A program made the translations under genes and the position numbers. The notes beneath the pieces are model-generated. The model made no database searches, was not told the DNA's origin, and saw only the letters and a list, made by a program, of their open reading frames with translations. A stretch of DNA of 53,966 bases, taken from contig DUBV01000107.1 of assembly GCA_012960105.1 (NCBI GenBank), positions 1 to 53,966 of the forward strand, read 5' to 3'. Numbering within the stretch: the first letter of the stretch is position 1; each line of letters starts with the position of its first letter. Shown one piece after another: positions 49,385-53,966 of this stretch. The DNA comes from Thiotrichaceae bacterium (GTDB lineage Bacteria; Pseudomonadota; Gammaproteobacteria; Eutrophobiales; Eutrophobiaceae).

Positions 49385-49429
49385 CTGTTAATCACTAGGT
49401 CGGCAGTTCGAGCCTGTCCCGGGGAGCCA
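49385..49429 (+). repeat. tRNA-Asn 3'-half fragment, copy 2 (complete 3' end with CCA)
   Basis: 45 nt, ctgttaatcac to ggggagcca. It contains the anticodon loop with GTT, the T-arm ggcag/ctgtc with loop ttcgagc, the acceptor 3' strand ccgggga, discriminator G and CCA (49427-49429). The upstream sequence lacks a partner tccccgg, so this is not a working tRNA. A rho-independent terminator follows 11 bp later, as after a real tRNA gene. Confidence 0.88.
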
Positions 49430-49440
49430 AACATAAAAAA

Positions 49441-49466
49441 GGGTTTCATGATGAAGCCCTTTTTTT
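49441..49466 (+). terminator. Rho-independent terminator after tRNA-Asn fragment 2
   Basis: GGGTTTC (49441-49447) pairs with GAAGCCC (49453-49459) with one G-U and a 5-nt loop, followed by seven T (49460-49466) and preceded by six A. It can work on both strands. It is probably the original terminator of the tRNA-Asn gene, carried with this copy only; fragments 1 and 3 lack it. Confidence 0.85.
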
Positions 49467-49944: not shown

Positions 49945-49986
49945 TTAATCACTAGGTCGGCAGTTCGAGCCTGTCCCGGGGAGCCA
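49945..49986 (+). repeat. tRNA-Asn 3'-half fragment, copy 3
   Basis: 42 nt from ttaatcac to ggggagcca, identical to the matching part of copy 2. It starts inside the anticodon loop: the base before it is not G, so the GTT anticodon is lost. It lies 18 bp after the ASCH stop codon. No terminator follows. Marks the right edge of the ASCH unit. Confidence 0.87.
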
Positions 49987-50038
49987 TATCAAATAAAAAG
50001 TTCATACAAACCACGTTTTTAACATGTCCGTATATCAA

Positions 50039-51511
50039 CTAAATATTTGTGTTAGGTGATGAATCAATATTGTACCTGTCAATAAATTCAGCTTCTTTGT
50101 CATGAGCGAGCTGTTTATTCAAAATAATTTTACCTAGTGGATTTTCAAACTCGATGATATGAAAATCTGAATGGTTGTCCTTGATAGCCTCCCTAAGTTC
50201 ATCAAGGTTATTTATAGACGTTCCATTAACACTTGTGATTCGCTTGTCTATATAGTCTTCGTAATCAATATTTATTTCATCTGGAAGAATCGTTGCTAGA
50301 AAGACTACTTTGTCTTTTTTGATGCCCACATTTTCTTTAAAGTCATTGTAAAGAATCAACATCCAACTAGGATATTCATCTTCTCCAAATGTATTAACTA
50401 TGTAATCCCGACTCAATTCCTGAAAAACTAACCCCCCAATCACTGCATAGTCAGGAATAAACCCTGAATAATGTCGGGTAACTAGCATGGACTGATAGTC
50501 GTTATAGTTGAGTTGATAATTAAATGATTGTTCTATCCCATTTCGCAACAACCGAATTGAAATGCTTTCTCCTAACTGTTTCCTTGTAAATAAATAGTTA
50601 AGACTAATTCTATCTCCTGTCAAAAAAGGAACCGTCCCATCATTACCAACAGATAAACCGTCAATTTCAAGCAGTACATCTCCTGCCATTATCAGTCCTT
50701 GTTTTTCTTCATGACCAAAATTGCTTTTAGTCACTAACACGCCACTCATATCAGCCTTCATGCGGTATGTCTTACGCATTTGAGGGTTGTGCATTGTTTG
50801 TGTTTTGATTGTGATTGAAGGCACACCGTCAACTTCCCCATCACTGATGTCTTTCAGAAATTGACTGATGACTGACAAAGGAATTATGTAACCTATGTTA
50901 CTAGCACCTTCACTGCTGTCTAGTTGAAACGTGATACCAGCAAGTTTCCCATCAACGATAGCAGGACCACCACTTGCACCGGAATTAATAGCCGCATCAA
51001 TTTGACCAACGAGATTATCTAAGCCTGAATGTGTATATCTATCGAAATCAATGCGGGAAATAATGCCTTTCGTGATGGTGAGCTGACTTCCCCCTATGGG
51101 GAACCCCCATGTCGTAACTTCATCACCTAAATTGGATACTTGCCCTAATAGGAGTGGTTTCGTATCAGTATAAAAGTCATTGTTATCAACGGTGATAATG
51201 ACCAAGTCACTTGCATCTGATATATATTCAATTTTCGCTTTATAGCGTTTGTCTGAACCTGTTTTTCTAACATAAATTGAAAGACTATTATCGACTACAT
51301 GAGCGGCAGTTAGAATACGATTACCTTTGATTATAACGCCTGAGCCACTATTTGATTCTGTGTAATCAATCTGCCACGGATAGAGATAATCAGGAACGAA
51401 ACTCTCAGTGAATATCTGTACAACAGAATTTCTTGTGTCGTTATCCTCCTTAGCACTTACTGAAAATACTACGAAATATATCAAAGCGATGATTATGGTT
51501 TTTATTTTTAT
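50039..51511 (-). CDS. Secreted Deg/HtrA-like trypsin-fold serine protease with PDZ domain(s)
   Basis: Numbering from TTG 51484 gives the triad His62 (ILTAAHVV), Asp93 (SDASDLVII) and Ser171 (NSGASGGP), then a PDZ-like region (GDVLLEIDGLSV) and a second C-terminal one (ITSVNGTSINNLDELREAI). The layout recalls plant Deg9-type proteases. I extend the start to an AUA codon at 51511: it has GAGG 8 nt upstream and restores a full signal peptide (MKIKTIIIAL then IYFVVFSVSA). TTG 51484 has no Shine-Dalgarno and truncates the basic n-region. It lies just right of tRNA-Asn fragment 3. Confidence 0.8.
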   Translation of the reverse strand: MKIKTIIIALIYFVVFSVSAKEDNDTRNSVVQIFTESFVPDYLYPWQIDYTESNSGSGVIIKGNRILTAAHVVDNSLSIYVRKTGSDKRYKAKIEYISDASDLVIITVDNNDFYTDTKPLLLGQVSNLGDEVTTWGFPIGGSQLTITKGIISRIDFDRYTHSGLDNLVGQIDAAINSGASGGPAIVDGKLAGITFQLDSSEGASNIGYIIPLSVISQFLKDISDGEVDGVPSITIKTQTMHNPQMRKTYRMKADMSGVLVTKSNFGHEEKQGLIMAGDVLLEIDGLSVGNDGTVPFLTGDRISLNYLFTRKQLGESISIRLLRNGIEQSFNYQLNYNDYQSMLVTRHYSGFIPDYAVIGGLVFQELSRDYIVNTFGEDEYPSWMLILYNDFKENVGIKKDKVVFLATILPDEINIDYEDYIDKRITSVNGTSINNLDELREAIKDNHSDFHIIEFENPLGKIILNKQLAHDKEAEFIDRYNIDSSPNTNI

Positions 51512-51595: not shown

Positions 51596-52048
51596 TTAGT
51601 TCATCAATGGGTTGTGTGATTCACTTGTCGTATTACCTGATGAAGTAATTTCGTCAATATTATAATTTTGCCACCCAAAATCTAATTCTGACCTCAAACC
51701 GTTTTGAAATCTCACTCCTGCTCTACCAGAAATGGATAAAGTATCATCGAAAGAAACTCTTTTTATTTCAGCTTTACTCGAACGTCCGCTCTGAACATCG
51801 TAATTAGATAAGCCGCTATACCCCCCCGAAACTCCTAAATTCCTTTCACCGTGCCTATAGTAACTATCACTCCAGTATTCAATATGGCTCTTGTAAGTTA
51901 ATTGCTCTTTAGAATGGTGTAACACATCCAATCTAAATTCAGAAAGCCCTTTGTCTCTAAGGTATATTAAATCTTTAACAGCTTGCTTATCTATTTCTAA
52001 CATATCAATTACGCCCTTCTTAACATGGAAAGGCAATTCTGAAAGCAT
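51596..52048 (-). CDS. Unknown protein, possibly 5'-truncated gene
   Basis: 150 residues from ATG 52048, not recognised. The C-terminal half alternates polar and aromatic residues (YSGLSNYDVQ, RAGVRFQNGLRSELDFGWQN) like a fragment of a beta-barrel or beta-solenoid, and ends with a Ser/Thr/Asn-rich tail. Upstream, in another frame, an ATG at about 52122 with AGGAG encodes a 34-residue signal-like peptide (MKYIIGLIIL) that overlaps this start. A frameshift joining the two would give a longer exported protein. Treat as a possible pseudogene. Confidence 0.4.
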   Translation of the reverse strand: MLSELPFHVKKGVIDMLEIDKQAVKDLIYLRDKGLSEFRLDVLHHSKEQLTYKSHIEYWSDSYYRHGERNLGVSGGYSGLSNYDVQSGRSSKAEIKRVSFDDTLSISGRAGVRFQNGLRSELDFGWQNYNIDEITSSGNTTSESHNPLMN

Positions 52049-52257
52049 TTCCAACTAGAGTCCCTGCCGACAAATGTAATTTCTCAGGGTGTTTAAGAAT
52101 TATTAAACCTATTATATATTTCATAATGTTTTTACTCCTTAAACTCTATAAGCTAAAGCTTCAATTATTTCAGTATAATGAGAACATATAATTACTATAA
52201 GAAGTATTAAAGCTATTAGGATGTGTGAAATTAAGCGCACAGAATTAAAGTTATCCA

Positions 52258-52515
52258 TCAGAGATATACCACTTCGTTATCTTCAATGTAAAAGACAGGA
52301 TTCCATTTCTTAAAGCCAAACACATTACTTTCGTCACCGCATATGAGACGGTCTTTAGCATCATATAAGATTGGAGGTTCTGAATGTTTAGAAAAGAATA
52401 TACATTCATATTCTATACCTAAATAAGTATAGGTAACTATTTCTTCATTCATATATGCTATAGAATGAGTCTGTCCAAATGAAAGCAACAGAATTATTAA
52501 TAGTAATTTTCTCAC
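52258..52515 (-). CDS. Small exported protein of the repeated module (copy A)
   Basis: 85 residues. A signal peptide nearly identical to that of the copy B protein (MRKLLLIILLLSFGQTHS) is followed by an unrelated mature part of about 65 residues with two Cys (YECIFF, LICGDE) that could form a disulfide. Start GTG at 52515, overlapping the upstream gene's stop by 4 nt. The mature part is not recognised. Paired with the gene at 52512-52733. Confidence 0.6.
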   Translation of the reverse strand: MRKLLLIILLLSFGQTHSIAYMNEEIVTYTYLGIEYECIFFSKHSEPPILYDAKDRLICGDESNVFGFKKWNPVFYIEDNEVVYL

Positions 52516-52733
52516 AAACTGATTCCGCCAAAAAAACCAACTTTTAATTTCTTCTTCTTATCTTTAGGGCGAACAGATATCACAGCCGCATTCATCGCGT
52601 CTTGAACGTCTTGCGGTAATTCGCTTCTGTTGACTAGCTGAATATTCGGATATCGCTGTCTTTCCCGACATAATTTTTCTGATTCTATCTGCTTTGACAT
52701 TGCTGCTCTCTCTTGCTCTATCTTTTTTGACAT
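52512..52733 (-). CDS. Module protein with conserved ELPQDVQDAMN block (copy A)
   Basis: 73 residues. The N-terminus contains an 11-residue internal duplication (MSKKIEQERAA then MSKQIE), a charged helix, then the block YPNIQLVNRSELPQDVQDAM, shared almost exactly with copy B (53473-53856). The last 20 residues (basic, then GFFGGISL) are unlike copy B. AGAGAGG precedes the ATG. No family recognised. Coupled by GTGA overlap to the small exported protein. Confidence 0.6.
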   Translation of the reverse strand: MSKKIEQERAAMSKQIESEKLCRERQRYPNIQLVNRSELPQDVQDAMNAAVISVRPKDKKKKLKVGFFGGISL

Positions 52734-52843
52734 TAGGTAATACCTCTCTTAATTGGTTTTCAGCTTAAGTGTGAAGAGATTATGGCTGGGGTGCTGGTAT
52801 GCTGCTTGACCTGATACGCCAATCAATTAGCTTTATGCGCCAA
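52731..52843. repeat. Module repeat, intergenic identical block (copy A)
   Basis: 113 nt identical, as far as I can compare, to 53854-53966. It spans the start of the ELPQDVQDAMN gene, its ribosome binding site, the roughly 90-bp intergenic region and the last codons of the zinc-motif gene. The two copies are offset by 1,123 bp. Part of each coding region beyond it is also repeated. Confidence 0.92.
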
Positions 52844-53116
52844 ACCCTCTATTGTTTCAATCAACGCCTCTTTTAGTGACACATCATTTTTAATTTGTCC
52901 GCTTCCATCACAAATAAGACATGTAAAATTATTATCACCAGGAGAGACTTCATAAATTAATGTGTTTTGATTTCCACTCGACAGTATTGCTGTATGTTTT
53001 TCCTGTAATTGATTTCTAACTAATTGAGATAACATCCCCGTCCCACTACATTCAGGACAAGTTACTTTACTAGTTACAAAATACTTTTTGTCCTGTGTCT
53101 TGGTATTAGTTTTCAT
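52823..53116 (-). CDS. DnaJ-type zinc-motif (CxxCxGxG) small protein
   Basis: 97 residues from ATG 53116 (GGGGA about 6 nt upstream; a TTG at 53131 is weaker). Two CxxCxGxG repeats, CPECSGTG (about residues 20-27) and CLICDGSG (about 69-76), would form a single zinc centre like that of the DnaJ Cys-rich domain, with a helical C-terminus ending LAHKAN. No J domain is present. The next module copy at the window edge ends with the same LAHKAN, so this gene is part of the repeated module. Confidence 0.65.
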   Translation of the reverse strand: MKTNTKTQDKKYFVTSKVTCPECSGTGMLSQLVRNQLQEKHTAILSSGNQNTLIYEVSPGDNNFTCLICDGSGQIKNDVSLKEALIETIEGLAHKAN

Positions 53117-53233
53117 TTTTAATCCCCACAACCCATATCACTTTGTCATTATTAATAAGCATCTAGTGCATCGTCTTTATTTTTATAATCTTCTGTACTG
53201 TTACTATGTGTTTCGATATTTCTAAGCCGTTAA

Positions 53234-53476
53234 TTAGGGAGCTTCTGTATGCGCATTTTCTGGTTCACACCATTTTTTATCCATATTTTTCCATTCAGTA
53301 AAAGTTCCATGTGCGTCTGAAATACCCTCAACATAACCCACACAGCCGTTTCCCTTTGCTACATTTGTCTTATTGACATGTGCCTCGCACCTTTCCAGTA
53401 ATTCACTGCCAGTTATAAAACCTGCCTGTGCCTGTCCAAATGAAAGTAACAGAATTGTTAATAGTAATTTTCTCAT
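53234..53476 (-). CDS. Small exported Rap1a/Tai-like protein (module copy B)
   Basis: 80 residues. Signal peptide MRKLLLTILLLSFGQAQAG, then FITGSELLERC and GCVGYVEGISDAHGTF, which match the core pattern of the Rap1a/Tai family (T6SS-amidase immunity and related periplasmic proteins). A third Cys is in KKWCEPENA. It is shorter than usual members and ends just after the core, so it may be C-terminally truncated. Start ATG overlaps the upstream stop by 4 nt. Confidence 0.6.
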   Translation of the reverse strand: MRKLLLTILLLSFGQAQAGFITGSELLERCEAHVNKTNVAKGNGCVGYVEGISDAHGTFTEWKNMDKKWCEPENAHTEAP

Positions 53477-53856
53477 TCCGTTTCTCCTTCTCTCTCAATA
53501 ATTTCGATGTCTGCTGTAAATATATTTGGGTAGTCGTATTTCGTAAAGCTTCTAAGAGAATTTCCGTTGGCCACCTGTTTCTCTACTCTTACTTTAAAAA
53601 ATTCATCACTCTCCTCAACAATAACGCCCTCGACATACCAGTCTCGGGTATCTTTAAAGTTATATGAACGGACATATTTGCCTACTAAACTCTCTACTTC
53701 CCCAACCAGGTTAGATAACTCTACATTTATTGGAACCACTGCTGAGTTCATTGCGTCTTGAACGTCTTGCGGTAATTCGCTTCTGTTGACTAGCCGAATA
53801 TTCGGATATAGGGGATTTGCCCGATAAGATTTTTCTTGCTCTATCTGCTTTGACAT
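53473..53856 (-). CDS. Module protein with conserved ELPQDVQDAMN block (copy B)
   Basis: 127 residues. Same head as copy A (MSKQIEQEK, then YPNIRLVNRSELPQDVQDAM) without the 11-residue duplication. It is followed by a longer, different tail: a short helix, then a beta-rich domain (VGKYVRSYNFKDTRDWYVEG onward) of SH3/Tudor-like appearance ending in acidic residues. Preceded by the same ribosome binding site and intergenic block as copy A. Function unknown. Confidence 0.6.
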   Translation of the reverse strand: MSKQIEQEKSYRANPLYPNIRLVNRSELPQDVQDAMNSAVVPINVELSNLVGEVESLVGKYVRSYNFKDTRDWYVEGVIVEESDEFFKVRVEKQVANGNSLRSFTKYDYPNIFTADIEIIEREGETE

Positions 53857-53966
53857 TAGGTAATACCTCTCTTAATTGGTTTTCAGCTTAAGTGTGAAGA
53901 GATTATGGCTGGGGTGCTGGTATGCTGCTTGACCTGATACGCCAATCAATTAGCTTTATGCGCCAA
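53854..53966. repeat. Module repeat, intergenic identical block (copy B)
   Basis: Identical to 52731-52843 up to the window edge, showing that the module continues to the right. The real length of identity cannot be seen because the window ends inside it. Confidence 0.9.
53946..53966 (-). CDS. Partial: 3' end of a second zinc-motif gene (module copy B)
   Basis: The last six codons and TGA of a minus-strand gene, encoding LAHKAN, exactly matching the end of the zinc-motif gene at 52823. The rest lies beyond the window. Only the repeat context supports this call. Confidence 0.5.
   Translation of the reverse strand: MAHKAN

Follow-up and report, generated by a model that had tools for sequence, protein, structure and literature searches.

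Several described systems resemble parts of the locus analysed here. The phage-associated promoter element (PAPE) of Pseudomonas syringae levansucrase genes consists of a promoter stretch and a short phage-related N-terminal coding stretch, found before different genes at several places; its coding start is in frame, conserved and 48 bp long (PMC3899960). CdhR, divergent from caiX, belongs to an AraC/XylS regulon with a direct-repeat operator (PMC5806209). The Rap1a/Tai proteins are T6SS immunity proteins of Serratia marcescens (PMC3533786). Lastly, deletion-born fusion genes are new ORFs that result from the joining of distant fragments (PMC12803068).

The locus considered here was at first supposed to be a polymorphic system. 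That view now gives way to a concrete example of a duplicated promoter and fused genes: a regulon promoter was probably joined to a phage-gene fragment, the product was copied onto different genes and the locus has partly decayed. The window, i.e., the whole stretch of DNA analysed (53,966 nt), is the entire contig C107 of genome G000 (2.54 Mb, 116 contigs). Contig numbers refer to G000 unless prefixed and L070 is an IMG/VR contig record. The comparison set comprises 53 family genomes including G000, and the order-level set is made of the identical 53 genomes.

Two direct repeats with common heads and different tails

The constant heads and unrelated tails reported in the preliminary description are borne out (Table 1). 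Two tandem direct repeats, spaced by 1,123 bp, match over 133 nt at 98% and over 121 nt at 85% identity, and L070 carries both copies at 100% identity. The first 118 nt of copies 1 and 2 are identical and are followed by a 33-bp insertion and a divergent patch, then by an exact 42-nt block that ends in the QDVQDA codons, after which the similarity is gone. The 4-nt start/stop overlap of the ELPQ ORF with the exported-protein gene is kept in both copies, as are the signal peptides of the exported proteins (49 nt at 92% for the DNA; 72% for the protein with blastp). In the same way as initially described, the C-termini are unrelated, blastp giving no match between the two ELPQ tails or between the mature exported parts.

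Table 1. Features of the repeat locus and their positions in the window.
Feature	Position	Strand	Remarks
Putative operator, copy 1	53929..53966	-	Two direct half-sites, 53966-53950 and 53945-53929, 21-bp period; identical to copy 2
CATAAT, putative -10 box, copy 1	53902..53907	-	Operator nt 60-65; not flagged by the sigma-70 scan
Putative phage-gene fragment, copy 1	53784..53893	-	85% identical to the end of contig C32
ELPQ1 ORF, 127 aa	53473..53856	-	Head out of the phage-gene frame; 90-aa tail
Signal peptide and rap1a-like front part	53234..53476	-	PF18602 positions 1-55
Remnant of a 63-aa S gene, frame-broken	53105..53215	-	88% over 111 nt to G001
CxxCxGxG zinc-motif protein, 97 aa	52823..53116	-	Single copy here; ORF intact
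Putative operator, copy 2	52806..52843	-	Overlaps the final codons of the zinc gene
CATAAT, putative -10 box, copy 2	52779..52784	-	
ELPQ2 ORF, 73 aa	52512..52733	-	Apparently phage-derived head with 33-bp insertion; tail different from ELPQ1
SP-X	52258..52515	-	Signal peptide shared with copy 1, mature part unrelated; C53 homologue 68% identical
Hydrophobic ORF, 39 aa	52139..52258	-	Overlaps the SP-X stop
Rap1a-like rear remnant	52023..52094	-	PF18602 positions 67-90; 18.9 bits, below cut-off

The repeated module had been thought to start with the zinc-protein gene. Its heads, overlaps and differing tails are indeed repeated, but the zinc gene is single and lies outside the repeat. The extension of the contig to the right, proposed at that time for counting the copies, is provided by L070, which matches window positions 51703-53966 at 100% and continues past the window end: both copies are present in this record but no zinc gene is found upstream of copy 1. 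At this place, L070 contains 43 bp followed by a stretch of 4,847 bp that is identical to contig C53, whose cluster encodes an N6/N4 methylase with a ParB domain, DUF5681, a terminase domain, DUF2924 and a serine recombinase. Beyond the 4,847 identical bp (L019:2239 for C53; position 4847 for L070), L070 leads into the window and C53 into a transporter gene and an SP-X homologue. This divergence reflects either strain variation or a chimeric contig; the alternative C53 junction was absent from the viral_contigs scan, a result compatible with either layout. At the C53 end, the first 77 bases match copy 2 exactly and are followed by the SP-X homologue, so that the SP-X end likely existed in a third copy, lost at an assembly break.

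An assembly artefact as the source of the two copies is unlikely because both are contained in the separately deposited L070, which possibly derives from the same sample or reads as the window. A simple old duplication is rejected since the similarity ends abruptly; the drop occurs directly after the conserved blocks, at the breakpoints that had been predicted, and this supports recombination.

The operator-like block and its distribution

The intergenic block common to both copies looks like an AraC-type operator-promoter. It contains TTGGCG direct half-sites 21 bp apart, i.e., direct repeats at about two helical turns, as in AraC/XylS promoters. The LAHKAN-stop codons, which in copy 1 give the appearance of a zinc-protein C-terminus, correspond to the operator half-site TTGGCGCATAAAGCTAATTGA. 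In copy 2, and likewise in C17 and G001, the zinc gene ends in codons that are at the same time a half-site. Fifteen sites from three genomes were considered, 14 of them retrieved with the pattern given below and one being a weaker site beside the AraC gene of G038. The self-match of the first 17 nt of the operator peaks at offset 21 (10.87/17; next best 6.07 for offsets 10-39) and reaches 10.85 at this offset over the 13 sites left after removal of near-duplicates. Nine of the 15 sites have ATAAT starting at nt 61 and four others CATATT or CGTATT at nt 58; the two remaining sites, located at zinc-gene ends, have neither a -10-like box nor a recognised gene behind them. A sigma-70 scan flagged a promoter at neither copy 1 nor copy 2, which fits an activator-dependent promoter or no promoter.

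The first 68-79 bp of the block are also found upstream of rap1a-like genes at C61, C93 and C17 (C17:6580) and of a lipoprotein-like gene at C17:1823. The operator recurs ahead of rap1a-like, lipoprotein-like, zinc and small-protein genes. The pattern YTGKCGSAYWARGNNNANNNNTTGGCR has nine matches in G000, two in G001 and three in G038 and is absent from the remaining 50 of the 53 family genomes, and the reversed pattern used as a control matches in none of the 53. It should be emphasized that this pattern was drawn from the G000 and G001 sites and that, therefore, only the three G038 sites test it independently; it misses the weaker site adjoining the AraC gene of G038. The zinc protein is encoded by the same three genomes as the operator. 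Furthermore, G001 (zinc protein 78% identical) and G038 (67%) both preserve the operator geometry.

At three loci (C17, C16 and G038:C116), an AraC gene is divergent from a zinc or S gene, with an operator site between the two. The regulator, present in two copies in G000, has PF12625 and HTH_18 domains, and its best NCBIfam match is QhpR, at 200.6 bits, i.e., below the cut-off of 250. Regulators with at least 70% identity are the two of G000 and are also found in G038. In G001, which has two operators, no AraC match was obtained at E 1e-40 and a first inspection yielded no candidate either; this counts against a one-regulator model. The AraC regulator would probably act through the operator to switch on dispersed small-protein, rap1a-like and lipoprotein-like genes. 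One guess is that this regulon may serve as an envelope response to some signal.

Other features were seen around these sites. In G038:C116 (L071:140-790), tandem operator-S units of about 350 bp each are found next to the AraC gene and continue as far as the end of the contig. In C17 (L016:2503-4510), the gene of a Ser/Thr kinase-PilZ protein is divergent from that of a 206-aa protein, which has a 34%-identical homologue behind an operator in G038:C208.

Putative leader ORFs, phage-like DNA and the genes behind them

A stretch of 110 bp that runs from within the intergenic block into ELPQ1 is 85% identical to the end of C32; because C32 ends at the matched stretch, the fragment may extend to about 53740. 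An ORF of C32, at least 1,241 aa long, runs through the ELPQ-head DNA in another frame, and in a protein search window 53789-53902 aligns with its residues 1203-1240 (74%, E 8.8e-10, one TAA). The phage-like label of the C32 ORF rests on one phage record, its sole match among 50,697, i.e., the putative internal virion D protein of Pseudomonas phage LUZ100 (30.6% over 13%, E 1e-9); the ORF has no match in PHROG, Pfam or viral_contigs. According to these matches, the ELPQDVQDAMN head is an out-of-frame 3'-end piece of a podovirus internal-virion-protein-like gene. Copy 1 and C32 differ at 13 sites, which are distributed evenly among the codon positions (5/4/4 in one frame and 4/4/5 in the other), so that neither frame of the head shows a sign of constraint in this very small sample. 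ELPQ1 has no match in phage records at E 1, and in viral_contigs both ELPQ1 and the zinc protein are found only in the L070 record.

These data bear on whether the block is a mobile promoter of phage origin that spreads by itself or a host operator copied with its gene. The first possibility would agree with the scattered places of the block, several of them at contig ends, with the phage-derived DNA of the leader at C107 and with the precedent in P. syringae. Nevertheless, it seems very unlikely, since phage DNA follows only the two C107 operators and not those of C61, C93 and C17, and since operators adjoin an AraC gene at the three loci mentioned above.

The rap1a-like gene behind copy 1 is split. 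Its front part scores 29.6 bits against a PF18602 cut-off of 27.7, and the DNA of its rear remnant, about 1.1 kb away, is 84-86% identical to the rap1a genes of C93 and C61. Between the two parts lie the S remnant, the zinc gene, operator copy 2, ELPQ2, SP-X and the 39-aa ORF, and from this gene order an S-zinc-operator-SP-X operon interrupts the rap1a-like gene. The window gene hence does not have the full PF18602 domain behind a signal peptide that characterizes Rap1a/Tai. Intact PF18602 members of G000 are found at C61, C93, C17 and C87, and PF18602 genes occur in 40 of the 53 relatives.

The first interpretation of this locus, as a recombination-driven system such as an immunity or surface-protein repertoire, keeps its recombination part, with breakpoints after the conserved blocks, but the repertoire is not supported, because the head is a control region and out-of-frame phage DNA, not a conserved protein. 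A repertoire in which variable tails are swapped in behind a constant promoter, ELPQ and signal peptide would be in line with the abrupt loss of similarity after the heads and the retained signal peptide, with the probable third SP-X copy at C53 and with the membership of one tail in the Rap1a family, which echoes T6SS immunity proteins. It is highly improbable given the origin of the ELPQ head and its lack of detectable constraint (again, in a very small sample), and given that one of the two exported proteins is only a truncated, broken rap1a-like front. The search of both proteins across genomes, which had been proposed as a check, retrieved the zinc protein in three of the 53 genomes, as stated above, but ELPQ in one (G000 alone). 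Moreover, the VipB/TssC sheath gene was not found in G000 by a test that detected the E. coli control and covered one T6SS family, and a PADLOC-DB comparison at E 0.01 gave no match for any of 10 proteins from the locus and its relatives. An immunity function for the PF18602 gene is not supported here, because PF18602 is so common among the relatives and VipB was not found, the latter being a thin test restricted to one T6SS family.

Several observations concern the other genes of the locus and its surroundings. SP-X has no match in phage records at E 1, its C53 homologue has no confirmed match in viral_contigs and the zinc protein has no match in plasmids at E 0.01. An AlphaFold2 model of the zinc protein (4 sequences) had a mean pLDDT of 44.8 and was set aside. 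A second family of proteins of about 60 aa, T, has two copies in the C16 operon (L021:845-1193) and also occurs after SP-X at C53 (L019:340-516), with 33-57% identity; SP-X and the zinc operon therefore have neighbours in common. At C61 (L017:700-720), the start codon position of rap1a, after a conserved AGGAGAAACG, is ATC where ATG is expected, and translation may begin at a different codon. A trypsin-like protease with PDZ domains is encoded on the same strand as the locus and downstream of it, at window 50039-51484. A 58-nt direct repeat (88%) is found at 49388-49445 and 49945-50002; we take it to resemble a tRNA 3' end, ARAGORN detected no tRNA there, and it may mark an integration boundary.

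The locus could also be the product of decay alone, with remains of a phage and of the regulon left next to a mobile element and nothing functional among them now. The split rap1a-like gene, the frame-broken S remnant, the adjoining terminase/recombinase cluster and the absence of detected constraint in the ELPQ head point in this direction. However, decay alone is rather unlikely in view of the identity of the two operators over 118 nt, the operator geometry kept in G001 and G038 along with zinc proteins of 78% and 67% identity, and the intact zinc ORF.

The duplication of a promoter fused to phage DNA remains the preferred reading, and its probable steps are as follows. An AraC/XylS-type operator just upstream of a -10-like box, through which an AraC regulator would control dispersed genes, would have been joined, immediately behind this box, to the terminal 3' piece of the gene resembling that of a podovirus internal virion protein. 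This junction would yield an out-of-frame leader ORF, ELPQ. The operator and the phage fragment would then have been duplicated or converted and linked to the rap1a-like gene (copy 1) and to SP-X (copy 2), and the S-zinc-operator-SP-X operon now interrupts the rap1a-like gene.

A wider proposal, possible but doubtful, is that the AraC operator, embedded in places in the 3' ends of small genes of its own regulon, propagates in the form of tandem operator-gene units, i.e., S-S in G001, operator-S repeats in G038 and the two chimeric units here. The regulon would then grow by placing new DNA under the same control, including out-of-frame fragments of phage virion genes as leader ORFs.

Comparison with described systems

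An AraC-type operator and the genes that it likely controls are thus sketched for uncultured Thiotrichaceae relatives. Should ELPQ be translated, it would be a testable example of phage-gene debris turned into a leader protein under a host promoter.

As for CdhR and caiX, an AraC gene is divergent and two direct half-sites lie upstream of the promoter, whereas the putative operator is reiterated here, in places inside the end of the previous gene, and its targets are small uncharacterised proteins (PMC5806209). The rap1a-like gene shares a signal peptide and PF18602 with Rap1a/Tai but is truncated, in a genome where VipB/TssC was not found and with PF18602 widespread among the relatives (PMC3533786). 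As in deletion-born fusions, distant fragments are joined into new ORFs; however, a promoter and a phage fragment would have been joined here, the product would have been duplicated and deletion is not part of the reconstruction (PMC12803068). Among the literature examined, the closest published design is PAPE, since a shared promoter and a phage-related stretch precede different genes in both cases. The in-frame phage-derived coding start that PAPE places, with its promoter, before different genes is not found here: the phage DNA of this locus is a 3' end in another frame, and its promoter resembles a host AraC operator (PMC3899960).
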